From Lonepinella koalarum (lineage in GTDB: Bacteria; Pseudomonadota; Gammaproteobacteria; Enterobacterales; Pasteurellaceae), in assembly GCF_004565475.1 (NCBI RefSeq), contig NZ_SRHX01000007.1, positions 82,479 through 146,478 of the forward strand: a stretch of 64,000 nt of DNA. The letters are read 5' to 3'. This document shows positions 1,005-60,831 of this stretch, piece after piece (the stretch's first letter is position 1; every line of letters begins with the position of its first letter). The position numbers and the translations under genes are program-made. The notes beneath the pieces were generated by a model, which saw nothing but the letters and a program-made list of their open reading frames with translations, was not told the DNA's origin and ran no database searches.

Positions 1005-2168
1005 TTAGAACAATCTTGGTCCACGGTTACTATTACCGACAGTTTCACCTTCCGCTACCTGAGAGGTAATCACTTTTTCACCCTCATTTAAGCCAGATAA
1101 AATTTGGGTATTCACATCATCATTTAAGCCGATAGTAACTTCTCGTTTTTCTACCTGTTTATCATTATTTAATACATTGACATAAACTTGATTACCATCA
1201 TTTTGTAGGCTAGTGGTTGGCACTAATAAGGCATCTTTAACATCTGCAATAGTAATGGTATTTTGCGTTGTCATGCCGATACGCAATTTACCGTCTGGGT
1301 TATCTACAACCACATTGGCATAATAATAAACGGCGTTGGTATCGGTCACATCTTCTGTATAACCATTATCAGTTAATGTTGTCATGGCTGGATCGACCGA
1401 ATTAATTTGAGCATGATATTTGGTATTTGGATCAGATAGGGTAGTAAACTCAATTGACATACCTTGTTTCACTTTAGTAATGTCCCCTTCGGAAATTTCA
1501 GGTTTCACCAACATTTTGCTTAAATCAGCCACTTGTACGATTGTTGGTGTCGTTTGATTCGCATTGACAGTTTGTCCGACAGAGACAGGAATAGAAATCA
1601 CCGTACCATTTAATGGCGACACAATTTTAGTGTAACCTAAGTTAGTTTGAGCGGTGCTGACTTCAATTTCTGATTGCTTAATAGATGCTTGTACCGTTTC
1701 AATATCCGCTTCCGCGCTGGATAGGGTATTTTTTGCTGAATTTAAATCATCTAACGTGGCTGAATTTTGCTTATATAATTTAGCTATACGATTATAAGCT
1801 GACAATGCCACATCATAAGCTATTTTTTTTGCTTTTAATTGAGCCTGATAAGAAGACAGTTGAGCTTGCGCGGTATTTAGGTTATTGACTTGTGTTTTGG
1901 AATCAATTTCCGCAATCAAATCACCTTCTTTGACTTCTTGTCCTAAGATCACATGGATTTTTTCAATTTTTCCAGATACTTGCGCCCCCACTTCAACGCG
2001 GTTATAGCTTCGTACTGTCCCACTGGCAATCACTGATTTTTGTAAATTACCACGGTTCACTGTTTCGGTTAAATAGGTAATTTGCGAATCTTTATCTGCT
2101 TTAAAATAAAACCAACAACTGCCACATAATGCTAGGACGATTGCTGCAATGAATAACTTCTTTTTCAT
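1005..2168 (-). CDS. macA: MacA, periplasmic adaptor of the MacAB-TolC efflux pump
   Basis: Membrane-fusion protein of 387 residues that links MacB to TolC. It has an N-terminal membrane anchor (about residues 4-20), a split lipoyl/barrel-sandwich domain (SGKIEKIHVILGQEVKEGD near 65-85), a long helical hairpin rich in Gln, Ala and Ser (about 90-175), then the beta-barrel and membrane-proximal domains. The length is normal for the family. It is directly upstream of macB with a 9-base gap. CTTAA direct repeats upstream suggest control by a PmrA/QseB-type response regulator. Another HlyD-family adaptor is possible in principle, but the adjacent macB makes MacA the sound call. Confidence 0.93.
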   Translation of the reverse strand: MKKKLFIAAIVLALCGSCWFYFKADKDSQITYLTETVNRGNLQKSVIASGTVRSYNRVEVGAQVSGKIEKIHVILGQEVKEGDLIAEIDSKTQVNNLNTAQAQLSSYQAQLKAKKIAYDVALSAYNRIAKLYKQNSATLDDLNSAKNTLSSAEADIETVQASIKQSEIEVSTAQTNLGYTKIVSPLNGTVISIPVSVGQTVNANQTTPTIVQVADLSKMLVKPEISEGDITKVKQGMSIEFTTLSDPNTKYHAQINSVDPAMTTLTDNGYTEDVTDTNAVYYYANVVVDNPDGKLRIGMTTQNTITIADVKDALLVPTTSLQNDGNQVYVNVLNNDKQVEKREVTIGLNDDVNTQILSGLNEGEKVITSQVAEGETVGNSNRGPRLF

Positions 2169-2200
2169 AATATTGTCCGATAATAATTAAAGTGAGGGGA

Positions 2201-2242
2201 AGTATAAGAGATAAATCTTAATAAATCCTTAAGTATGCTTAA
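2201..2242 (-). promoter_or_regulatory. macAB promoter with three CTTAA direct repeats
   Basis: Read on the minus strand, a -10-like TATACT lies at 2206-2201. Upstream, CTTAA occurs on the + strand at 2217-2221, 2228-2232 and 2238-2242, starts spaced 11 and 10 bases, so all lie on one helical face and overlap the expected -35. Half-sites TTAAG-N5-TTAAG are the pattern bound by PmrA/BasR and QseB response regulators. The regulator assignment is inference. Confidence 0.5.
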
Positions 2243-2290
2243 TAGATTGTGATTTTAGGTAAAAGTTTCATTTTTATCTTTTTATCGACT

Positions 2291-2319
2291 TTGTAATCTT
2301 TATTTAAAGCGTGTAGAAT
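2291..2319 (+). promoter_or_regulatory. Sigma-70 promoter of glnS
   Basis: TTGTAA at 2291-2296 and TAGAAT at 2314-2319 are separated by 17 bases, 34 bases before the glnS start. Confidence 0.6.
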
Positions 2320-2352
2320 AACCCTCATTTTTAACCGCTTAAATTTGACTAT

Positions 2353-4026
2353 ATGACAACCGAAAAGACTGTAATTGAAGAAACGGGCGAGATTCGTCCA
2401 ACCAACTTTATTCGCCAAATTATTGATGAAGATTTAGCAAGTGGTAAACATAACAATGTTTACACTCGTTTCCCGCCTGAACCCAATGGTTATTTGCATA
2501 TCGGACATGCCAAATCTATTTGTTTAAATTTTGGTATCGCCCAAGATTATCAAGGCAAATGTAATTTACGTTTTGATGATACTAACCCCACCAAAGAAGA
2601 TGTGGAATATGTGGACAGCATCAAGCAAGATGTAGAATGGTTAGGTTTTCACTGGGAGGGTGAACCACGTTATGCTTCCGATTATTTTGATCAACTTTAT
2701 GGCTATGCCATTGAGTTAATTGAGAAAGGCTTAGCCTATGTAGATGAACTTTCAGCAGAACAAATGCGTGAATATCGTGGTACCTTAACGGAAGCAGGGA
2801 AAAATAGCCCGCATCGTGATCGCCCGATTGAAGAAAATTTGGCATTATTTGAAAAAATGAAAAACGGCGAAGTCCCTGAGGGTAAAATGAGCTTGCGTGC
2901 CAAAATTAATATGAGTTCACCCTTTATGGTGATGCGTGATCCTGTGATTTATCGGGTGAAATTTGCCAGCCATCATCAAACAGGAGATAAATGGTGTATT
3001 TATCCGATGTACGACTTTACTCACTGTATTTCTGATGCTATTGAACGCATTACCCATTCATTGTGTACGTTAGAGTTCCAAGATAACCGCCGTTTATACG
3101 ACTGGGTATTAGAACATATTTCTATTGCACGTCCGTTGCCACATCAATATGAATTTTCTCGTCTAAATTTAGAAGGTACTTTAACTTCTAAACGTAAATT
3201 ATTGAAATTAGTGGAAGAAAAAGTGGTAGATGGCTGGGACGATCCACGCATGCCAACCATTTCAGGTTTACGCCGTCGGGGTTATACGCCAGCATCTTTA
3301 CGTGAATTTTGTCGCCGTATTGGGGTGACTAAACAAGATAACGTGGTAGAATTTAGTGCATTGGAAAGTTGTATTCGTGATGATTTAAACACTAATGCAC
3401 CACGTGCCATGGCAGTGATTAATCCGTTAAAAATCGTGATTGAAAACTTAAAAAATCCAGAAATTTTAACCGCACCTAATCACCCCAATCGGGAAGAACT
3501 CGGCACTCGTCAATTAGCATTTACCCAAGCGCTTTATATCGATCAGGCAGATTTTCGTGAAGAAGCCAATAAACAATATAAACGTTTAGTATTAGGCAAA
3601 GAAGTACGTTTACGTAATGCTTATGTAATTAAAGCAGAACGAGTAGAAAAAGATGCAGACGGCAATGTGACCTGCGTTTATTGCTCTTATGATCCTGACA
3701 CTTTAGGCAAAAATCCTGCTGATGGACGTAAGGTGAAAGGCGTAATTCATTGGGTGTCAGCAACAGAAAATTACCCTGCGGAATTTCGTCAATACGGACG
3801 TTTATTTGATATGCCAAACCCGGGAGCGGAAGAGGATATTATAGCCGCCATTAGCCCGAATTCCTTGGTGGTGAAACAAGGTTTTGTAGAAAAATCCCTT
3901 GTTAATGCTCAAGCGGAACAAGCCTATCAATTTGAACGGGAAGGCTATTATTGTGCGGACAACAAACACAGCCGCGCGGATCAGTTGGTGTTTAATCTCA
4001 CCGTTAGCTTAAAAGAAGGATTTTAA
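2353..4026 (+). CDS. glnS: Glutaminyl-tRNA synthetase
   Basis: Class I cytosolic synthetase that charges tRNA-Gln with glutamine using ATP. The 557-residue length fits the E. coli enzyme. The HIGH region reads [13 protein letters not shown] (residues 41-53) and the KMSKS-equivalent loop is LTSKRK (about 277-282). Two C-terminal anticodon-binding beta-barrels follow. A consensus-like promoter precedes it, but the ATG has only a weak ribosome-binding site. The stop is immediately followed by the ATG of a small lipoprotein gene and then ycgN, so the three probably share a transcript. No damage is seen. Confidence 0.97.
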
Positions 4027-52906: not shown

Positions 52907-53272
52907 GGGGCTGATCTTGGATTCGACGGGATTGGCGAAGTCCAAAGTGCACGTCAAGGTGCGGTAGGCCTTGTAAATAAACCGCAAAACAATAGTCGCA
53001 AACGACGAACAATACGCTTTAGCAGCTTAATAACCTGCTCATCGCCTTCGCTCCCTAGCTTCCGCTCGTAAGACGGGGATCAAGCGGAGTCAAACCCAAA
53101 CGAGATCGTGTGAAGGCTTCGGCTTGGAGTTGACACATTAAATCCAATCAAGCTAGTTTATCTTTTCGCGTGTCTGTCCGCAGGGGGTAAGCGAATTTAA
53201 AGACTGACTAAACGTGTAGTACTGAAGATAGAGTAATTTCGGACGGGGGTTCAACTCCCCCCAGCTCCACCA
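52907..53272 (+). ncRNA. ssrA: Transfer-messenger RNA (tmRNA)
   Basis: The 5' end GGGGCTGATCTTGGATTCGA and 3' end GTTCAACTCCCCCCAGCTCC-ACCA form the alanine tRNA-like half. The tag frame starts with the resume codon GCA at 52998 and reads ANDEQYALAA followed by two TAA codons (53028-53033). Length is 366 bases with encoded CCA. It rescues stalled ribosomes with SmpB and tags the products for ClpXP, aided by SspB. The 3' end is the attachment site of the integrated element that follows. Confidence 0.98.
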
Positions 53273-53303
53273 AAACACAATTTTACACCATCCAAAGACG
53301 TAC

Positions 53304-53341
53304 AAAAAAGCCTTATTTCTTAACGATTTAAGGCTTTTTTA
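53304..53341 (+). terminator. Terminator after ssrA
   Basis: AAAAGCCTTA pairs with TTAAGGCTTTT around a 12-base loop, followed by T6. Confidence 0.8.
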
Positions 53342-53387
53342 TTGTCTTTTGCCGTGTTATGCGGTATTATCAAATCCAGTGATTTTA

Positions 53388-53604
53388 GGAACACCAGATA
53401 GACCACCAGCACTTTTTGTCAAAAGCTGGTGTTCCAAAAATGGCTTAAACCCTTATAGCAAAAGGCTTTGTGGCACTTTGTGAATTTAAATTCTGGTGTT
53501 CCAAAACCCCTTGCTGGTGTTCCAAATCACTAAAAACAGTGTTCCAAATAATGCCTAACCCCTTGTGATAAAAGGCTTTTTGGAATTTTTCCCAGTGTTC
53601 CAAA
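53388..53604 (+). repeat. Array of integrase arm-type repeats
   Basis: The unit (CT or CA)GGTGTTCCAAA-like occurs five times in direct orientation: CTGGTGTTCCAAA at 53426, 53493 and 53514, and CAGTGTTCCAAA at 53537 and 53593, with one inverted copy GGAACACCAG at 53388. A second unit, CCTTATAGCAAAAGGCTTT at 53451 and CCTTGTGATAAAAGGCTTT at 53561, is interleaved. Their place between the attachment site and int fits arm-type integrase binding sites. The rest of the 350-base gap holds the ssrA terminator. Confidence 0.6.
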
Positions 53605-53625
53605 CAATAAAACAAGGTGGACATT

Positions 53626-54879
53626 ATGGCAAGAACAACTAGACCACTAAACGCTACTGAAGTAGAAAAAGCGAAACCAAAAAATAAAGAATATTACCTT
53701 TCAGACGGGGACGGTTTAAAATTGCGTGTTCGTCCAAATGGTACGAAATTATGGTTGTTTAATTACTATCGCCCCTACACCCAAAAACGCAATAATTTAA
53801 GTATTGGCACATACCCCGAAATCAGCCTAGCACAAGCGAGAGAAAAGCGGTTAGAGTTTCGCAGTCTATTGGCTCAAGATGTCGATCCACAAACGCACAT
53901 TCAAGCAATCCAAGCCGAGAAATCCGCCGAGCTTAACAACACCTTTGAAAATATTGCGTGGCAATGGTTAGAACACCGCAAAAACCGTGCGAACTTTTCA
54001 GCAAGCTACGCAAATGACGTTAAACGGCTTATAGAGCGGATTTTACTCCCAGCCTTTGGAAAGTATCCAATCACCCAAATAAACGCCCCTATGGCGTTAA
54101 AAGCGTTTAAACCGCTCCAAGAAAAAGGAACGTTAGAAACCTTAAAGCGTTCCATTCAAAAGCTCAATGAAATAATGACATTCGCCCTACACCGTGAAAT
54201 TATCCCTTACAACCCTACGGCGAATCTCTCTAAAGAATTTGATAGCCCACGGGTGGAACATTTCAAAACCTTGAAGCCTGAAGACCTAGGGGAATTTCTC
54301 TACACGCTGAATAACGCTCAAATCAAGCTACAAACACGCTATTTGATTTTGTGGCAATTGTTGACAATGACACGCCCTAATGAAAGTGCTACCGCCAAAT
54401 GGGCGGATATTGACGAAAAAGCCCGAATCTGGACGGTGACGATTAACAAGGGAATCAAAGAAACCGACAACGGGCGAGAACACAAAATTACCCTTTCATG
54501 GCAAGCCTTAGCCCTATTGCGAGAAATTAAAAAATTGAGTGGTGGCAAAGAATATTTGTTCCCTAGCACAAAAGACCCTAAAACGCACACCAATACGCAA
54601 ACGGCAAATGCGGCGATTAAACGCATGGGCTATCACGGAAAACTGGTTGCTCACGGTTTACGGGCTATAGCAAGCACCTATTTAAACGAACAAGGGCATA
54701 ATCCCGAATTAATCGAAGTTGCCCTGTCACATATTAATCAAGATAAAGTGCGAATGGCATACAACCGAGCGGATTATTTACCACAACGCTTTAAACTGCT
54801 CCAAGCATGGGCGGATTTTGTCGATCAGTGTTCAAATGGGGCATTGCCTGAATATCATTTAAAAATTGTGAATGGGTAA
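53626..54879 (+). CDS. int: P4-type tyrosine recombinase (integrase)
   Basis: Site-specific recombinase of 417 residues. The N-terminal DUF4102 arm-binding domain is clear (YYLSDGDGLKLRVRPNGTKL then WLFNYYRP, SIGTYPEISLAQAREKR), then a core-binding domain and the catalytic domain with Arg in TMTRPNESATAKW, HGLR in VAHGLRAIASTYLNEQGH, the second His in ALSHI and Tyr in MAYNRADY. Intact. ATG 53626 is preferred to an in-frame GTG nine bases earlier, as AAGGTGG lies properly before it. It sits next to the tmRNA 3' end, a common target of this family. An uptake core follows the stop. Confidence 0.93.
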   Translation: MARTTRPLNATEVEKAKPKNKEYYLSDGDGLKLRVRPNGTKLWLFNYYRPYTQKRNNLSIGTYPEISLAQAREKRLEFRSLLAQDVDPQTHIQAIQAEKSAELNNTFENIAWQWLEHRKNRANFSASYANDVKRLIERILLPAFGKYPITQINAPMALKAFKPLQEKGTLETLKRSIQKLNEIMTFALHREIIPYNPTANLSKEFDSPRVEHFKTLKPEDLGEFLYTLNNAQIKLQTRYLILWQLLTMTRPNESATAKWADIDEKARIWTVTINKGIKETDNGREHKITLSWQALALLREIKKLSGGKEYLFPSTKDPKTHTNTQTANAAIKRMGYHGKLVAHGLRAIASTYLNEQGHNPELIEVALSHINQDKVRMAYNRADYLPQRFKLLQAWADFVDQCSNGALPEYHLKIVNG

Positions 54880-54957
54880 AGTGCGGTGGAAAATGGGCGA
54901 AATTTTTAATTTTAGCTTGTATTGAAAATAATTATTTTAGAATGTAAAGGTATTTTT

Positions 54958-55872
54958 ATGGGTTTATTAAAATCACTAAAAAAGAAATGCGGAGAAAATC
55001 CAAATTTTCCCAAGGCTGGAATATTTCTAGTTGATGAATTGAGTTTTATTTTTAATCATTTTGATGAAAATGAAGTTATAAATATATTAAAAAACAATGA
55101 ATTAAGTGAATATTTGATTAAAACTATAGAACAATTACAAAATTATGAACTTGTAAGAGTGGCAAAGGCGGAAATTATAAAGAATCCAATTTACAATACT
55201 ATTTTCTTTGAGCTTGATGGCACTCCAATAATTAGCAAAATAAGAAAATATTTCTTTGAAACAGTCCCACTACCTAACCTTTCAAATATATTTGTATTAT
55301 TAACTACCAAAATTAAACACATTGAAAAATTTAGAAATCTTAAAGGATATCAATTAGCTGGCATTATATCTTTTTACTATCTACAAAGTGCGTTAAAAAT
55401 TATTACTCATGGATATGTTAGAACATTAACAGGAAAAGCACTAAACTCTTTGAAAAAACAAATTGAGAGAAATTCAATTAAATCAATGGAATTATGTTTA
55501 CAATCTAGTGAAGCGATTATATTATCTAAACAAATATTATTTGAACACAAAGAAAAAAGTATTATTGAAACAGCAAAATATTTGCTAAGCAAAGAAAGAG
55601 AAAAAATAAAAATAATTAAAGAAGAATTTGAAGCTGAAAAATTAGAAATAGCCAATAATGCAATAAAGGAAAATTCTAAAAAAGCATTGGAGGCTAGAAA
55701 TAAACCAATATTGGAAAATAAAAGGAAATTTCTAAAAGCCTTTGATGAATATAAAGAGCAACAAATTTCTAAAGGATTGAAAGTTAGCAAAGATCACTTT
55801 GCTGAAGAAAACGCACAAAAATACGGAGTAAAAGTAAAAACAGCACGAAAAAATTGGTTACAAGGTTACTGA
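54958..55872 (+). CDS. Unknown cargo protein with a coiled-coil region and C-terminal HTH-like segment
   Basis: I do not recognise this protein. From ATG 54958 (AAAGG before it) it has 304 residues; an earlier ATG at 54922 adds 12. It is rich in Lys, Ile, Glu and Asn, and the DNA is visibly more AT-rich than its neighbours, which suggests separate acquisition. No signal peptide or membrane segment. The middle (about 200-265) is charged helical and could form a coiled coil (KEREKIKIIKEEFEAEKLEI). The end, DHFAEENAQKYGVKVKTARK-NW, looks like a small helix-turn-helix. It lies in the spot after int where satellites often carry accessory or anti-phage genes. A terminator follows. Confidence 0.7.
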   Translation: MGLLKSLKKKCGENPNFPKAGIFLVDELSFIFNHFDENEVINILKNNELSEYLIKTIEQLQNYELVRVAKAEIIKNPIYNTIFFELDGTPIISKIRKYFFETVPLPNLSNIFVLLTTKIKHIEKFRNLKGYQLAGIISFYYLQSALKIITHGYVRTLTGKALNSLKKQIERNSIKSMELCLQSSEAIILSKQILFEHKEKSIIETAKYLLSKEREKIKIIKEEFEAEKLEIANNAIKENSKKALEARNKPILENKRKFLKAFDEYKEQQISKGLKVSKDHFAEENAQKYGVKVKTARKNWLQGY

Positions 55873-55907
55873 ACTTTACTAGTAAAAGGTAACCATTCAC
55901 AAGCAAA

Positions 55908-55941
55908 GCCCTGCTATTCACTAGTACAGGGCATTTTTTTT
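55908..55941 (+). terminator. Terminator after the unknown cargo gene
   Basis: GCCCTG (55908-55913) pairs with CAGGGC (55927-55932), followed by A and T8. Confidence 0.8.
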
Positions 55942-56038
55942 GCCCAAAATTCCTTGTTTAATACGCTCAACCTATCGCACACCACCAGCACCGATAGGCA
56001 TTATTTAAACCATTCAACCAATACAAGGAAAAAACACA

Positions 56039-56254
56039 ATGAGCGAAACTATCAATAAAATTCTTCGTAGAACACAAGTATTAGCAATGCTAGGCGTAAG
56101 CCGTTCCACAATGGCAGACTGGGAAAATCCAAAATCTAAACGCTACCGCCCAAACTTCCCGAAAAAAATATCTTTAGGGGCTAATTCTATTGGATACCTT
56201 GAAAGTGAAATCAATGCGTACATTGAACAATTAGCAAGCCAACGGATTAACTAA
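56039..56254 (+). CDS. alpA: AlpA-family regulator
   Basis: 71-residue DNA-binding protein with a MerR-like winged helix (ILRRTQVLAMLGVSRSTMAD then WENP). The pattern KRYRPNFPKKISLGANSIGY then LESEINAYIEQL is the standard AlpA/excisionase end. AlpA-type proteins activate excision and early genes in P4-like satellites and islands. AAGGAAAA lies before the ATG. It starts the right-hand operon of the element. Confidence 0.85.
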   Translation: MSETINKILRRTQVLAMLGVSRSTMADWENPKSKRYRPNFPKKISLGANSIGYLESEINAYIEQLASQRIN

Positions 56255-56263
56255 GGGGGAATG

Positions 56264-56431
56264 ATGAACAATGACCGGTGGCAAATAATCGCCTACCAAG
56301 CAGACAAAAAGCCGTTGATTATTGGCTCAATGCCATTTAACCAATCATTATTTTCAATCTTACAACAAGCACAAGAAAACAAACATTATCAAGCCATTGT
56401 GCTAAAACGAATGGTCGGAGAAATCAAATGA
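56264..56431 (+). CDS. Small hypothetical protein (55 aa)
   Basis: A short frame with GGGGGA directly before tandem ATGs (56261, 56264). The product contains WQIIAYQADKKPLIIGSMPF and QAIVLKRMVGEIK. The stop overlaps the next gene's start by four bases (ATGA), which supports it being translated. No family is recognised. Confidence 0.6.
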   Translation: MNNDRWQIIAYQADKKPLIIGSMPFNQSLFSILQQAQENKHYQAIVLKRMVGEIK

Positions 56432-56760
56432 AACGAAACAAACAACCGGAACGCAAAGAGCGAGTAGCGAAATTGTTACTTGCTCACCCGAAAGGTATTT
56501 CAGAGCGTGAACTAGTATTCAGTGAAAATATGACTAGCGGACGTAATGAAGTAAACAAACTGGAACGCTTGCTAGATGTGGAATTTAACCGAACATGGGA
56601 GAAAACCGCTGACGGTTACGGGCGATATTACCGCTATTCAATCCCAAACCGTGAAACCGCTGAAATATTGGCAGACTATGCCACCGCTAAAGCTAGAGAG
56701 CGTGGAGCAGTGATTTTCAATGAAAGCCAACTACTCCACATTTTAGGGCAATTTGCCTAA
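56428..56760 (+). CDS. Small winged-helix-like protein (110 aa)
   Basis: The N-terminus is basic, then ERVAKLLLAHPKGISERELV and NEVNKLERLLDVEF read as a winged helix (helix, helix, recognition helix, wing with YGRYYRYSIP). Cytosolic. No name is recognised; a role in the replication or control of the element is inference. It overlaps the preceding small gene by four bases. Confidence 0.65.
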   Translation: MKRNKQPERKERVAKLLLAHPKGISERELVFSENMTSGRNEVNKLERLLDVEFNRTWEKTADGYGRYYRYSIPNRETAEILADYATAKARERGAVIFNESQLLHILGQFA

Positions 56761-56828
56761 TTAAATTTACCGCCCCTTGTAAACTCTCACACCTACTAGG
56801 GGCGATTTAATCAAGCAAAGGTTATTAT

Positions 56829-57263
56829 ATGGCAGATCACAAAAATAACAAAGACAGACGAATTAACGAGAAATTTCTCGCCCTCCCTAATTCGGTGCTA
56901 GACAGCCTAGCTTTTCGGTCATTAACAGGCAATGAAACAAAAGTATTTATTCATCTTTGCCGAAAATATAACGGCACGAATAACGGTAACTTAGCCATCC
57001 CCTACAATACCGTTGAGAAAGAATACAATCTATCACGCCAAACGCTTTACAAATGTCTGAAATCGTTGGAAGAGAAAGGATTTATAGAAACCAGCAGACA
57101 AGGCAGAAAAGGCGTATTGAGTCTGTATGCGGTCACAATTCACGGCGTTGATGAATGTTTAAATAATGGCTACCCTATCCACGACCTAAAACCAACAACC
57201 CAAATTAAGCATAGTTGGAAATATTACAACGACCAACTAAACGCAAAATCCAACAATACCTAA
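56829..57263 (+). CDS. Helix-turn-helix protein of mobile-element type (144 aa)
   Basis: Central segment TGNETKVFIHLCRKYNG, then LAIPYNTVEKEYNLSRQTLY and KCLKSLEEKGFIE, is a replication-initiator or DnaD-like winged helix as found in plasmids and integrative elements. The N-terminal FLALPNSVLDSLAFRSL is also common to those. No catalytic domain. It could be a regulator or an origin-binding protein; the noncoding block with inverted repeats lies just after it. Confidence 0.65.
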   Translation: MADHKNNKDRRINEKFLALPNSVLDSLAFRSLTGNETKVFIHLCRKYNGTNNGNLAIPYNTVEKEYNLSRQTLYKCLKSLEEKGFIETSRQGRKGVLSLYAVTIHGVDECLNNGYPIHDLKPTTQIKHSWKYYNDQLNAKSNNT

Positions 57264-57643
57264 TCTCAAGCCTTGTGAACAGCAAGGCATTTTTAATTCA
57301 ACGCTAGCAAAAATCAGGCAAACGAGAACAAAAATGTGTTTATTTTGGTAAAAAATCCGACCGCGGAGGCATATGAATGTATTTTTTGATGTTTCTGGGG
57401 GTATTTTTTTACTAAGATAAATTCTGTACCTCTTCTTAGAAATCTCTATAGGATATGGTATATATATAAACGTGTTAAATTTTTTAACACCAAGAATGGC
57501 GAAATAATTCTATTTTCTTAACATAAAGAGCTAAATGCGTACAGGTTTTGTATAAAAAAAAGACAATGACGTTAAGAAAATAGAAATATTGTGTTAAAAA
57601 ATTAGAACAGAGAAAATCTAAAATTGAAGCGAGAAAATAGTAA
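57264..57643. other. Noncoding AT-rich block with paired inverted repeats (candidate origin or control region)
   Basis: 380 bases with no clear gene. A perfect 15-bp inverted repeat, TTCTATTTTCTTAAC (57508-57522) and GTTAAGAAAATAGAA (57571-57585), is separated by 48 bases; a hairpin GTGTTAAA-TTT-TTTAACAC lies at 57472-57490, and GTGTTAAAAAA recurs at 57591. Near the left end GGAGG (57365-57369) precedes a 15-codon frame at 57373-57420. Such a layout fits a replication origin, packaging or operator region of the element; none is proven. Confidence 0.5.
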
Positions 57644-58099
57644 ATGATGACAGTCCTCACCCCAAAACAAGAAGCCTTCTGTTTAGCCTACATTGAAACA
57701 GGCAACGCCAGTGAAGCCTACCGCCAAGCCTACAGCGTGGATCAAATGAAACCTGAAAGCGTTCACCGGAAAGCCAAAGAGCTATTAGATAACGGCAAGA
57801 TCACGGCAAGGATTGAGCAGTTACAAGCGGACAATGTGGCACGGCACAAAATCACCGTTGACAATCTGCTTGATGAATTGGAGAAAGCGAGAAAAATCGC
57901 CGAGAGCAACAACAACCCAAATGCGATGATCACTGCCACAATGGGGAAAGCTAAGCTGTTAGGTTTTGACAAGCCGAAAGCGGACAATGACGATATGGCA
58001 AACTTGCCGACTGAGAACAATGTTAGCTTTGAAGATTGGTTGAACGGCATTGATAATTTTAAAGTAAATCCACCAACAAGACGGGAAGCGATAAAATGA
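57644..58099 (+). CDS. terS: Phage terminase small subunit
   Basis: 151 residues. The N-terminal helix-turn-helix LTPKQEAFCLAYIETGNASE followed by AYRQAYSV, and the helical region KELLDNGKITARIEQLQADN, are the terminase_2 family pattern: the DNA-recognition subunit of phage packaging motors. No large subunit gene is present, so it would need a helper phage's large subunit. In satellites a private small subunit redirects packaging to the satellite genome; that role here is inference. Confidence 0.82.
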   Translation: MMTVLTPKQEAFCLAYIETGNASEAYRQAYSVDQMKPESVHRKAKELLDNGKITARIEQLQADNVARHKITVDNLLDELEKARKIAESNNNPNAMITATMGKAKLLGFDKPKADNDDMANLPTENNVSFEDWLNGIDNFKVNPPTRREAIK

Positions 58100-58299
58100 G
58101 ATGTAACGAAGCAAAGCGATTTTTAAGACCGTCAGCAATTGAGCATTACATCATAAATGGCAATAATTCAATTTATAGATTTATGAGCCTATACAGCGAC
58201 AATGAACCCTACCCGATTAATGAGCTGGTGGAAATTCAAAAGCAAGTGATAGGCGAAATCATGGCTGATTATAAACTATGTGCTAGTGAGTTTTTATAG
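58096..58299 (+). CDS. Small hypothetical protein (67 aa)
   Basis: Starts within the terS stop (ATGA overlap), so it is probably translated with it. Sequence blocks RPSAIEHYIINGNNSIYRF and ELVEIQKQVIGEIMADYK suggest a small helical protein. No family recognised. The 150 bases after it read KQAERLLKRIEYREKQLI in one frame, so it may once have been longer. Confidence 0.55.
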   Translation: MRCNEAKRFLRPSAIEHYIINGNNSIYRFMSLYSDNEPYPINELVEIQKQVIGEIMADYKLCASEFL

Positions 58300-58446
58300 C
58301 AGCAATTAAAACAGGCAGAACGCTTATTAAAACGCATTGAATACAGAGAAAAGCAATTAATAGCCGGAAACACTGAATACAAACCGAATTAGAGCAGATA
58401 CCGGCAAATAATAACGCCTACTAATTCCACCAACAAGCGACATATT

Positions 58447-58470
58447 AACCTAGATTATTCTAGGTTTTTA
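58447..58470 (+). terminator. Terminator before the first toxin-antitoxin pair
   Basis: AACCTAGA (58447-58454) pairs with TCTAGGTT (58459-58466) with a 4-base loop and T run. Confidence 0.8.
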
Positions 58471-58495
58471 TTTTATTTAAAATCTTATAATCTTA

Positions 58496-58524
58496 TTGCT
58501 TATAAGATAATGATATCTTATAAT
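58496..58524 (+). promoter_or_regulatory. Promoter and operator of the RelE-like toxin-antitoxin pair
   Basis: TTGCTT (58496-58501) and TATAAT (58519-58524) are 17 bases apart. A perfect dyad TTATAAGATA-ATGA-TATCTTATAA covers 58500-58523, and TCTTATAATCTTATT occurs twice nearby. The overlap of dyad and promoter fits autoregulation by the antitoxin. Confidence 0.6.
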
Positions 58525-58556
58525 CTTATTATTGACAAATAACCAAACGGCAAAGA

Positions 58557-58820
58557 ATGAATAAAATCTACTGGACGATAAAAGCAACCAAGCAGCTTTT
58601 AAAAATTGATAGACGATATATCATCGCAATAAAAAGTACCGTAGAGCGTTTAGTTAGTTTTCCTGATGTTGATGTAGATATAAAGAAGCTCAAAGGCACA
58701 ACTAATCAATATCGCCTAAGAGTGGGAATTTATCGCATAATTTTTGAAGTCATCAACGAAGAACCAAAGATTATCAGTATTCAAGCGGTCAAAAAACGTA
58801 GTGAACAAACCTACAATTAA
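58557..58820 (+). CDS. RelE/ParE-superfamily toxin
   Basis: 87 residues, basic, with the fold's landmarks: WTIKATKQLLKIDRRYIIAI (helical hairpin), DIKKLKGTTNQYRLRVGIYR (core strands with Arg residues) and IIFEVINEEPKIISIQAVKK. Such proteins are mRNA interferases or gyrase poisons. The antitoxin gene follows after 13 bases. Toxin-first order is as in higBA-type modules. The gene is intact. Confidence 0.85.
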   Translation: MNKIYWTIKATKQLLKIDRRYIIAIKSTVERLVSFPDVDVDIKKLKGTTNQYRLRVGIYRIIFEVINEEPKIISIQAVKKRSEQTYN

Positions 58821-58833
58821 ACAGGGGGAAATA

Positions 58834-59229
58834 ATGGCACAATTACAATATATCAATGACAAACAAGGCTCACCGCTTTTTGTGTTGTTACCTATTGAAG
58901 AATATCAGTTATTACAACAATACAAAGCAATCAGCACGAATGACACCAGCAATGATGAACACTGGCAAGATGTGGAATATATCAAGGGAGACAATGATAA
59001 CGAGCTGATACCGCACGAAGTCTTAACCTTGATGATTGATGATGATATTAGTTTATTAGGTGCGTGGCGAAAATACCGCAACTTGTCACAATCAGAAGTA
59101 GCCAAACAAACAGGGCTTTCACAATCAGCCATTTCACAGGCTGAACGCAAAGAAAGCCGACCACAACAGAAGACCTTAGAGCGGTTATCTAAGATTTACC
59201 AAGTGAAGCCAGAACAGCTTACCCTTTAG
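58834..59229 (+). CDS. Xre-family antitoxin with a Phd-like N-terminus
   Basis: 131 residues from ATG 58834, with GGGGG before it. The N-terminal part (QYINDKQGSPLFVLLPIEEY then QLLQQY) resembles antitoxin/Phd-like segments that bind the toxin; the C-terminal part is a Xre helix-turn-helix (AWRKYRNLSQSEVAKQTGLS then QSAISQAER). The longer frame starting at 58744 overlaps the toxin gene and is not the real start. It should neutralise the adjacent toxin and repress the module. Confidence 0.82.
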   Translation: MAQLQYINDKQGSPLFVLLPIEEYQLLQQYKAISTNDTSNDEHWQDVEYIKGDNDNELIPHEVLTLMIDDDISLLGAWRKYRNLSQSEVAKQTGLSQSAISQAERKESRPQQKTLERLSKIYQVKPEQLTL

Positions 59230-59233
59230 CGAT

Positions 59234-59263
59234 ACAGCCTACTTTAACCGGTAGGCTGTTTTA
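59234..59263 (+). terminator. Terminator after the first toxin-antitoxin pair
   Basis: ACAGCCTAC (59234-59242) pairs perfectly with GTAGGCTGT (59251-59259), followed by TTTATT. Confidence 0.85.
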
Positions 59264-59564
59264 TTATTCATAGGTTTTATACAGTATATCTTAAGGGGAT
59301 AAATTTTCAAAAAAAGAAAAATTTTTTTATAAAAACGAAAAAAGGCTATTTTATACAGTACATTAAGAAACAACACAGATTTTAAAAGGTACTTCCGACG
59401 GGGTACGCCTTTCCACGTGGTAACGGACTCACGGAGAAAGGCAAATTTTCGCATTTTTTGACCGTCATCATCTTGTGGTTATTTTGTGATTTTTCCAATA
59501 TTGAGAAAATGAAATACTTGCTTGTCTGTAGTGAAAACATTACAATGCAACTCAAAGGGGGAAC
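59264..59564. other. Noncoding gap with direct repeats and a GC-richer dyad
   Basis: No gene in 300 bases. TTTTATACAGTA occurs twice (59275-59286 and 59349-59360). Between 59391 and 59446 a GC-richer patch with GCCTTTC and GAAAGGC in inverted order stands out from very AT-rich surroundings. It could be a packaging (cos-like) or binding site. AAGGGGGAA at the right end is the ribosome-binding site of the next gene. Confidence 0.45.
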
Positions 59565-59876
59565 GTGAATAAAATCAAGCAAACAACCGAATTTAAACAG
59601 TGGTTTAAGACGGTGAAAGATCCGATTGCGAAAATCGCTATGACCAAACGCATTGAGCGAGCAATGATAGGCAATTTTGGCGATTATAAAAGCCTAGGTG
59701 GTGGATTGTATGAAATGCGGATTAATACAGGCAAGGGCTACCGCATTTACTATGCTCAACATGGCGAAATTATTTATATTTTGCTCAATGGGGGCGATAA
59801 GTCCAAACAGCAAGCAGATATTGAAAAAGCCAAGGTAATATTGGCAGACATTAAAACAGGCAAAATAATCAAATAG
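59565..59876 (+). CDS. higB: HigB-type addiction-module toxin
   Basis: 103-residue RelE-superfamily killer protein. Landmarks: TEFKQWFKTVKDPIAKIAM, GDYKSLGGGLYEMRINTGKG then YRIYYAQ, ILLNGGDKSKQQADIEKAKV. The start is GTG with AAGGGGGAA before it. The antitoxin gene follows after 10 bases. The intact C-terminal helix shows what the remnant at 24001-24063 came from. Predicted translation-dependent mRNA interferase. Confidence 0.88.
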   Translation: MNKIKQTTEFKQWFKTVKDPIAKIAMTKRIERAMIGNFGDYKSLGGGLYEMRINTGKGYRIYYAQHGEIIYILLNGGDKSKQQADIEKAKVILADIKTGKIIK

Positions 59877-59886
59877 GACGGCATAC

Positions 59887-60210
59887 ATGGAAAACAATAC
59901 AGACATTTCCCCTGAAATGGTGGAAAAATACGGCATTACCGATTTTGACACGGCGGAATATTTAGAGAATGATGAACTTATTGCATTATATCTAGCGGAA
60001 ACTTTACGCACTGGCACACCTGAAGAATTTATCCAAGCCTTAAACACCGTAGCGAGAGCGAAAGGCATGAACGAATTAGCCCAAAAATCAGGCATTGGCA
60101 GAGAAAGCCTATATCAAACTCTTTCATCCAGCAAGCCCCGTTTTGAAACCGTGCTAAAAATTCTTAACGGGCTGAATATTGAGTTAGTGCCACGGATAAA
60201 GACGGCTTGA
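59887..60210 (+). CDS. higA: HigA-type addiction-module antitoxin
   Basis: 107 residues: an N-terminal toxin-binding part (ITDFDTAEYLENDELIALYL) and a Xre-type helix-turn-helix (NTVARAKGMNELAQKSGIGR then ESLYQTLSSS). Same family as the orphan antitoxin at 24067-24372. It completes the second, intact toxin-antitoxin module at the right end of the integrated element, where it may stabilise the element. Confidence 0.88.
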   Translation: MENNTDISPEMVEKYGITDFDTAEYLENDELIALYLAETLRTGTPEEFIQALNTVARAKGMNELAQKSGIGRESLYQTLSSSKPRFETVLKILNGLNIELVPRIKTA

Positions 60211-60416
60211 AAAACAAGTCCAAATTTAACCGCGGTTTTGAATAACTGATCATCTAAAAATGGGGACACTTTGAATTAAAGTAACACCATAAGTAACACC
60301 GGCGAAAATCTGAATTAAGAAAACCCAGTATCTATAAGGCTTGAACGCACCCAATTCAGATGACCCCAGCGACTAAACCACTTTAATTTCTATCGCCTAC
60401 ACATCTTTCTTCAATT

Positions 60417-60468: not shown

Positions 60469-60831
60469 CTATCTTTCATCAATCGTCTTAATCCAAAAGA
60501 AAAAGAACCAGTATTCAATTAATAATAGGATCACAATACAAATTCTGCCATAAATCGGCGTAAAGTAGAAACTGATTGCCATCATCACTGTCGATAAAGT
60601 TAAAATTGAAATTTTAGATTTTTTGGTTAAAGCACGTTGCTCATCAAAAGATTTTAAGTGTTTTTTATAAATTTCCGTTTGTAAAAACCAACTGTGTAAA
60701 CGTGGCGAACTTTTGCCAAAGAAGAACAGAGCCAACAATAAAAAAGGCGTGGTAGGCATCACGGGTAACAATGCACCAATAACCCCTAATCCGATACAAA
60801 TAAATCCTAATCCAATATATAAAAATCGCAT
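60469..60831 (-). CDS. ybaN: YbaN/DUF454 inner-membrane protein
   Basis: 120-residue membrane protein with a typical start (FLYIGLGFICIGLGVIGALL then PVMPTTPFLLLALFFFGKSS) and LHSWFLQTEIYKKHL, the DUF454 signature. Two or three membrane helices. Function unknown. ATG 60831 is chosen because AAGGAA lies before it. It is divergent from prlC and marks the return to the core chromosome right of the element. Confidence 0.85.
   Translation of the reverse strand: MRFLYIGLGFICIGLGVIGALLPVMPTTPFLLLALFFFGKSSPRLHSWFLQTEIYKKHLKSFDEQRALTKKSKISILTLSTVMMAISFYFTPIYGRICIVILLLIEYWFFFFWIKTIDER

Follow-up and report, generated by a model that had tools for sequence, protein, structure and literature searches.

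A probable miniature phage satellite in the tmRNA gene of Lonepinella koalarum with a predicted Rep-iteron origin in place of a primase module

The stretch of DNA analyzed here (the window) comprises 64,000 nucleotides of Lonepinella koalarum (NCBI RefSeq assembly GCF_004565475.1, contig NZ_SRHX01000007.1, positions 82,479 to 146,478 of the forward strand) and represents the end of one contig in a 2.5-Mb genome of 47 contigs. It contains a candidate phage satellite, an element of 7.1 kb located at window positions 53259-60370 and adjoining an intact gene for transfer-messenger RNA (tmRNA). All 12 listed genes of the element are encoded on the + strand. The features of the locus are as follows.

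52907..53272, + strand: tmRNA gene (ssrA), the target site, intact as it stands (Rfam RF00023, 259.8 bits)
53259..53265, + strand: core of the left attachment site (attL), CCCCAGC, the 3' strand of the acceptor stem up to base 69
53388..53601, unstranded: clustered GTGTTCC / GGAACAC repeats, which are likely arm sites of the integrase (six of the 11 such heptamers of the window lie in 53340-53620)
53626..54879, + strand: P4-type tyrosine integrase, 417 aa (Pfam Arm-DNA-bind_3, Phage_integrase, Phage_int_M)
54955..55872, + strand: p305, an orphan, 25.6% GC, occupying the variable slot that separates int from alpA
56039..56254, + strand: AlpA regulator/excisionase (PF05930, E 6.9e-12)
56261..56431, + strand: p56, a small protein (family F24, clustering with one protein of the delimited element L141)
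56428..56760, + strand: p110, a small conserved protein (family F4, 11 proteins)
56829..57263, + strand: Rep, a winged-helix protein of 144 aa that is similar to the N-terminal portion of O-type phage initiators and lacks a primase domain (phrog_678, E 5.7e-12)
57454..57626, unstranded: predicted origin, with boxes and iterons read from the sequence
57644..58099, + strand: TerS, terminase small subunit, 151 aa (PF03592, E 2e-15; phrog_51, E 7e-23)
58096..58299, + strand: p67, a short conserved protein (family F6, 11 proteins)
58557..58820, + strand: ParE/RelE-type toxin of toxin-antitoxin (TA) pair 1 (ParE_toxin, E 3.2e-9)
58834..59229, + strand: helix-turn-helix antitoxin of TA pair 1 (phrog_7241, E 6.3e-34)
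59565..59876, + strand: Gp49-family toxin of TA pair 2 (Gp49, E 2.6e-6)
59887..60210, + strand: HI1420-type antitoxin of TA pair 2 (TIGR02684, E 1.1e-27)
60281..60300, unstranded: two GTAACACC repeats, possible right arm sites
60352..60370, + strand: right end CAATTCAGATGACCCCAGC, with the core of the right attachment site (attR) at 60364-60370, followed by GACTAAACCA in place of TCCACCA

Ten element proteins were given to each of three libraries (Pfam, PHROGs, and NCBIfam), every gene being covered by at least one of them. The P4-type integrase, AlpA, small proteins, TerS, and two TA pairs that the first-pass annotation had described as co-oriented were all present where claimed, and no primase, large terminase, portal, capsid, tail, or lysis family was found among the 12 element genes in these scans, in agreement with its statement that structural, primase, and large terminase genes are absent. 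The tmRNA is the sole Rfam match in the window at gathering scores. The integrase shows 66-79% identity to seven integrases of the tmRNA-site family from other genera.

A repeat of the tmRNA end that could represent attR was not present in the window within 3 mismatches, and there was no strong ungapped match either. The right end was found by way of relatives: two elements at tmRNA with integrases 67-68% identical, L055 (genome G089) and L054 (G091), end in CAATTCAGATGACCCCAGC, which recurs in the window at 60352-60370. The extent proposed in the first-pass annotation, 53273 to 60360, broadly held, but the right end lies ten bases further, at 60370, and the core starts at 53259. A scan of 140 genomes of the family (Pasteurellaceae) for TTCAGATGACCCCAGC with at most 1 mismatch gave 29 places in 27 genomes and none for the reversed pattern; two places (L112 and L117) were judged unrelated by their flanks, leaving 27 right ends. 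Nineteen of these have the tmRNA at the left end of the fetched stretch, two form part of a tandem array in genome G021, and the other six (L105, L108, L109, L118, and two in L120) showed no tmRNA, partly because contigs end. In 19 of the 20 elements with a left-end tmRNA (the 19 and L176), the 7-bp core is exactly the same in attL and attR, while L127 is one base off; the core reads CCCCAGC, or CGCCAGC in L136, L138, and L141, matching the tmRNA of those hosts. At least 7 shared bases are usual for such integrases (PMC10111431). The attachment sites, for which the first-pass annotation had suggested a comparison with an empty ssrA site, are in this way defined by comparing relatives.

A point against the overall reading is that ybaN, the 3' neighbor of the element (- strand, at 60469), was not present within about 1.5 kb of the tmRNA in 19 other tmRNA loci. 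The gene prmB, which lies 3' of another tmRNA element in genome G088 of the same genus, sits elsewhere in the L. koalarum genome. In L054 and in L139 (G092), some 37 kb of other DNA separate the satellite end from srmB, and the right side of these two elements is therefore probably not the native flank. For G091, where attR abuts foreign DNA, a rearrangement made by the integrase was considered and dropped, because a second element in tandem is the simpler explanation with srmB about 37 kb further. Tandem arrays at the tmRNA site are likely, as two satellite ends are found in Aggregatibacter segnis HK_296 (L132) and as the satellite ends of L054 and L139 are followed by this other DNA.

The sequence TCCACCA, expected directly after the core, is intact in none of the 27 right ends, nor in any of the 19 with a left-end tmRNA. 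Specifically, CCACCA is left in six, CACCA in one, ACCA in three, CCA in four, and none of these in 13; the first base after the core is not T in 24 of the 27, and six lack exactly this T. Numbering of the acceptor stem (5' GGGGCTG / 3' CAGCTCC) identifies the first lost base as U70 of the G3-U70 pair. The third acceptor pair of tmRNA is a completely conserved G-U and a potent determinant for alanyl-tRNA synthetase, and in Haemophilus influenzae trans-translation is counted among the essential functions (PMC3985003). We infer that the last 7 bases of the present tmRNA gene, TCCACCA, come from the left end of the element. Excision should damage the tmRNA, since 24 of 27 right ends lack the base of the G3-U70 alanine-identity pair. 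When the flanks of the 20 elements with a left-end tmRNA were joined, ARAGORN found no tmRNA in five (window, L054, L129, L135, and L136). Several observations weigh against such damage: in the other 15 a tmRNA was still called, 14 times with changed ends and once, for L176, unchanged; L176 (Actinobacillus minor NM305, found via its integrase with a looser motif) has TCCACCA intact at attR; and L144 has kept TCCA. Because of the 15 tmRNAs still called, a loss of charging or function is something we infer from the identity pair.

The lesions could also reflect neutral decay of a useless gene fragment and contribute nothing to the retention of the element. Selection presumably does not act on the displaced fragment as long as the element is integrated, and L176 and L144, which retain more of it, would fit. 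However, the losses have a common starting point, the right-hand border of the 7-bp core, and are nested in related hosts: among the Aggregatibacter elements, L101 lacks the T, and L103, L124, and L102 lack progressively more. The element side of the core is nearly constant, and in G088, where this gene is occupied by an element of another type, the fragment is intact. Moreover, deletions of variable length that start from a fixed acceptor-stem site, as found here, are known for the displaced fragment at attR of phage-inducible chromosomal islands (PICIs) in several tRNA genes (PMC10111431). Neutral decay is for these reasons rather unlikely, although it merits some weight, and we favor lesions that would make loss of the element costly.

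Twenty elements were delimited, i.e., the window element, L054, L055, and 17 of 20 fetched stretches, with bounds set from the tmRNA end (for L132, a preceding attR) to the attR motif, and their open reading frames (ORFs) were clustered into families. Two remnants (L133 and L139) and L131, with differing other genes, were set aside. The remaining elements fall into six small ones of 5.4-8.4 kb (L142, L130, window, L138, L132, and L129), which all have Rep and none of which has a primase family, and eleven large ones of 10.2-13.7 kb, in which Rep is absent throughout and a primase from either of two families is always present. Hosts of the small elements include Aggregatibacter kilianii PN_528, A. 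segnis HK_296, Haemophilus parainfluenzae C2004002729, and Ursidibacter arcticus Bamse1. The recurrence of the gene order at ssrA, a check proposed with the first-pass annotation, is borne out by five other tmRNA-family elements with this layout, and its description of the element as smaller than typical PICIs (7.1 kb versus 12-15 kb) applies to a recurrent class.

In the five other small elements, 55 ORFs of at least 60 aa matched 32 PHROGs; the best 25 of these include TerS, antirepressors, methyltransferases, and DnaD-like loaders, and contain no primase and no structural family, TerS being the only head-and-packaging entry. In the large elements, 137 ORFs of at least 80 aa (integrases excluded) matched 24 Pfam families at E <=1e-5, among them DUF927 (six ORFs), DUF5906 (four), D5_N (four), and Terminase_2 (four), the families being mostly those of regulators and TA systems; capsid, portal, large terminase, tail, and lysis families were absent from these 24, with Terminase_2 as the sole packaging family. 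Relatives with the same integrase at tmRNA are satellite-like, and no full prophage with these genes was found there, so the view that the element is a satellite and not a prophage fragment stands. The tmRNA gene of G088 does carry a 43-kb prophage-like element (L034/L053, C1 84684-128379), which has a different integrase, a large-terminase match, and an intact tmRNA-end repeat at its own right end.

In the integrase tree, the small/large label requires four changes, at least three of which are forced by well-supported branches, and the smallest well-supported group containing the window integrase has eight rows, five of them from large elements (support 100/100). Two points weaken a clean division into classes. 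Shuffling of the labels gave values as low in 103-105 of 500 cases, i.e., the labels are neither clearly clustered nor clearly scattered, and L063, an element at another site outside the tmRNA set, has both Rep and a primase, showing that their mutual exclusion is not strict. In Pasteurella bettyae (L189) there is a short Rep-like match without a clear attR motif. In L054, L127, and L128, the primase family is split over two ORFs, suggesting broken genes. L131 of A. segnis ATCC 33393 (10.7 kb) has the same ends and integrase and mostly opposite-strand, unclustered genes.

The existence of larger, primase-bearing relatives with the same integrase family at the same site, and of short family remnants such as L133 and L139, raises the question of whether the window element, too, is what is left of a larger tmRNA satellite after loss of the primase region and decay to immobility. 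This is improbable in our judgment: the ORFs of the listed genes look intact, the same Rep-origin layout recurs in five further elements of comparable size, and small elements occur at several places in the integrase tree, as exchange of modules would give. A compact element with a replicon of its own is the preferred reading.

The first-pass annotation, which had listed small DNA-binding proteins and no primase, requires correction in this respect: the element has its own predicted replicon. It is not without a candidate replication gene, because the winged-helix protein encoded at 56829-57263 is related to phage O-type initiators. In PHROGs, Rep matches O-like initiators and DnaD-like loaders (best E 5.7e-12 for the window protein), as do the Reps of five other members, and weak matches below the cut-offs were obtained to the N-terminal domain of phage O (E 4e-4 for Pfam PF04492, E 0.0022 for NCBIfam TIGR01610). 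A profile of eight Reps matched 934 proteins at E <=1e-10; among 120 of the 934 matches listed, the closest named relative is from Lonepinella sp. BR2882, with 82% identity.

The region 3' of rep has a common layout, in which an iteron array is bordered on its 5' side by a box like TATGGCTATAATATATAAA and on its 3' side by one like TCAAAAAATCGAAATTAC. In the window, the boxes are TATGGTATATATATAAA at 57454-57470 and GAGAAAATCTAAAATTG at 57610-57626, and the iterons are located at 57474-57488 (+, diverged), 57508-57522 (-), 57571-57585 (+), and 57593-57607 (+). With 32 repeat pairs, the stretch 57435-57654 is the densest repeat region of the element outside the left arm (p 0.004 against 500 composition-matched resamplings, uncorrected for the choice of region). 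Both boxes were found by pattern in L129, L132, L142, and L060, and the 3' box also in L130. Iterons 1, 3, and 4 start at relative positions 0, 97, and 119 in L129, L130, L132, and L138, with the same spacing in the window (57474, 57571, and 57593); in L142 and L060, the last two iterons are likewise 22 apart, and the spacing in L063 is 44/53/22/22. PICI origins are located directly behind the initiator gene and consist of two iteron sets around an AT-rich stretch (PMC6092414), and by sequence this arrangement is also seen here.

The Reps of L129 and L132 are 89% identical and differ mainly in the recognition segment; their genes share a near-identical start and diverge abruptly over the helix-turn-helix segment (H59-66 and H70-83, in a low-confidence model). 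The two origins have different iterons but share much of the sequence around them, and L200 combines an L129-type Rep with L129-type iterons. That two such similar Reps, differing mainly in the recognition segment, go with different iterons argues that Rep binds its iterons. On the other side of the balance, the structure model of Rep is poor, with a predicted local distance difference test (pLDDT) value of 55 that is too low for a fold search; the window, L130, and L138 have diverged boxes, which were read by eye and are missed by the 5' box pattern; and the primase element L059 has an isolated match resembling the 3' box.

Rep might instead be a transcriptional regulator and the repeats operators before terS, with replication occurring passively or by proteins of a helper. 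The fold is a generic winged helix according to Pfam and NCBIfam, some homologues are named ArsR-family regulators by their sources, TATAAT is present inside the 5' box of several relatives, and neither Pfam nor PHROGs indicates a primase or helicase-loader domain. Nevertheless, O-like initiators and DnaD-like loaders are the best PHROGs in the window and in five other members, the arrays lie 3' of rep as in PICI origins (PMC6092414), and Rep is found in the elements that have no primase. We consider a purely regulatory role unlikely and prefer a function of Rep as an initiator.

Among 31 IMG/VR loci with Rep relatives (15 of them the whole contig), no exact terminal repeats of 15-200 bases were present, and these loci therefore give no evidence of circular forms. 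Three IMG/VR contigs of about 60% GC (L214, L216, and L228) encode a Rep relative and a TerS matching that of the set at 67%; L214 also has an integrase, and no Pfam primase was found among the ten ORFs scanned. They are possibly the same layout in other bacteria.

TerS of the window is 54% identical over 89% to gp1 of phage ES18 and 52% identical over 93% to a Bordetella phage TerS, and it matches 180 of 50,697 phage records. ES18 packages its DNA by the headful mechanism. Relatives of TerS are encoded in 23 of the 140 family genomes, including that of L. koalarum itself. The first-pass annotation had taken the lone TerS as a sign that the element diverts packaging. TerS is not defining for the small class: a clear TerS is present in two of the six small elements and a weak TerS-like protein in a third. 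Members of the TerS family (F5) are encoded by nine of the 20 delimited elements, with a clear TerS by sequence only in the window, L142, L054, and L055; L129, L126, L127, L136, and L141 have a shorter TerS-like protein, which in L129 matches phrog_51 at E 6.8e-4. This short protein, with a GNATHAL.. motif, stands in the place of TerS in these five elements, and a related short protein accompanies TerS in L054 and L055. A member of family F1 in L054 (11328-11909) had no PHROG match.

A contractile-tail prophage of the same genome, which carries a tail sheath, a portal, and a large terminase, was considered as the helper and rejected: it contains the only other PF03592 match of the genome, and the identity to the TerS of the element is 28% over 76 residues. 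A relative of the ES18 large terminase is present in 20 of the 140 genomes at E <=1e-20, including L. koalarum (37% identity over about half of the protein). These comparisons did not point to a matched helper.

Compared with Gram-negative PICIs such as EcCICFT073 and PmCI172 (PMC6092414), the element shares the combination of integrase, AlpA, and replication module, the unidirectional genes, the optional TerS, and the absence of structural and lysis genes, its replication module being predicted and of a different kind. The origin, as judged by sequence, likewise follows the initiator gene directly, with two iteron sets flanking an AT-rich region. However, the element is PICI-like and not a PICI, because it departs in three respects: PICIs have a Pri-Rep protein, whereas the element has a 144-aa winged-helix Rep; they measure 12-15 kb, against 7.1 kb here (both PMC6092414); and a PICI site is never occupied by a prophage, whereas the tmRNA gene holds the 43-kb prophage-like element in G088, although the exact crossover may differ.

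The PICMIs of Vibrionaceae resemble the element in being very small, in having integrase and AlpA without capsid remodeling genes, and in often having one gene between int and alpA (PMC10803314). In contrast to the element with its Rep, tmRNA site, and TerS, they have a primase (DUF3987/DUF5906) and a fis site, and no terS was found in PICMI115 (PMC10803314); of the PICMI set of integrase, AlpA, primase, and fis site, the last two are missing here. The large tmRNA-site satellites of Pasteurellaceae (e.g., L055, L054, L126, and L141) have the same integrase family and share with the element AlpA (8 of 11), p67 (9 of 11), p110 (9 of 11), and TerS or its short relative (6 of 11); they differ by their size of 10.2-13.7 kb, a D5_N/DUF5906 or DUF927 primase/helicase, and an antirepressor-type gene (family F3, 10 of 11) that is absent from the element. 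Phage O-type initiators (PF04492, TIGR01610) have the winged-helix N-terminal domain in common with Rep, which matches weakly and lacks the C-terminal part. Lambda O binds the iterons of its origin. P4-like satellites are characterized by the P4 alpha primase and a C4-type immunity RNA, and neither was found in the element, which has no primase and the tmRNA as its only Rfam match. Capsid-forming PICIs carry their own capsid and head genes; no such genes were found.

Taken together, the tmRNA gene probably harbors a very small phage satellite that depends on a helper and is of the Gram-negative PICI type; it is predicted to replicate from a compact Rep-iteron origin instead of relying on a primase module. 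This assignment is carried by the gene set, the ends with their shared 7-bp core, the repeat array behind rep, the recurrence of the layout in five other elements, and the way Rep and iterons change in parallel. The steps from induction and excision through replication and packaging, and the cost of losing the element, would be the following. A helper phage would trigger AlpA, and integrase and AlpA would excise a circle via the CCCCAGC core. Rep would bind the iterons and open the origin, with helicase and primase supplied by the host or the helper, and TerS would pass the DNA to the large terminase and capsid of a headful helper. Excision would rejoin the tmRNA to the damaged attR, lacking U70 in most elements and the whole TCCACCA in the window, and the TA pairs and the damaged attR would both penalize loss of the element.

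What is new is a PICI-like satellite class with a small Rep and an iteron origin in place of the primase module and with a tmRNA-damaging right end; in the literature searched (mostly open-access, with supplements outside the scope), no description of a primase-free Rep-iteron satellite or of a tmRNA-damaging end was found. More tentatively, and with somewhat less than even confidence, we propose a distinct class of 5-8 kb satellites that have dropped the primase for a plug-in replicon, made up of a winged-helix Rep of 140 aa and an origin with iterons, the specificity of which would drift through joint changes of recognition segment and iterons, and that addict the host by the broken alanine-identity pair of the tmRNA, so that loss would cost the main ribosome-rescue system. 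If this holds, a replicating satellite would need fewer genes than thought, and initiation would be separated from priming in PICI-like elements. The paired Rep-iteron variants would provide a natural test of specificity, and the damaged tmRNA end a concrete way for an integrated element to become indispensable.

Regarding the remaining genes, p305 had no family match in Pfam, PHROGs, or NCBIfam and matched only itself at E <=0.001 when 5.8 billion proteins were searched by a word-based method. In many elements, a different long gene fills the slot that separates int from alpA (54955-55872 in the window), and some subsets of these genes are similar mainly in the C-terminal part, as though N-terminal domains had been swapped. 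For p67, a fair structure model (pLDDT 87.8) gave no PDB match at E 0.001 or better. TA pair 1 (58557-59229) is also present near the right end of L055, and a prophage on contig C44 of the same genome (L067 17134-17851) encodes a Gp49/HTH pair that is 57% and 62% identical to TA pair 2. The small element of H. parainfluenzae (L138) contains at 1909-3282 a gene resembling those of type II methyltransferases; the adjacent ORF on the opposite strand gave no PADLOC match, and this is possible restriction-modification cargo. Finally, L245, the 9,865-bp circular molecule pPSEST02 of Stutzerimonas stutzeri RCH2 (NC_019938.1), which is listed as a plasmid, has the appearance of a circular satellite, encoding AlpA and TerS together with a recombinase and a protein with a VapE domain.

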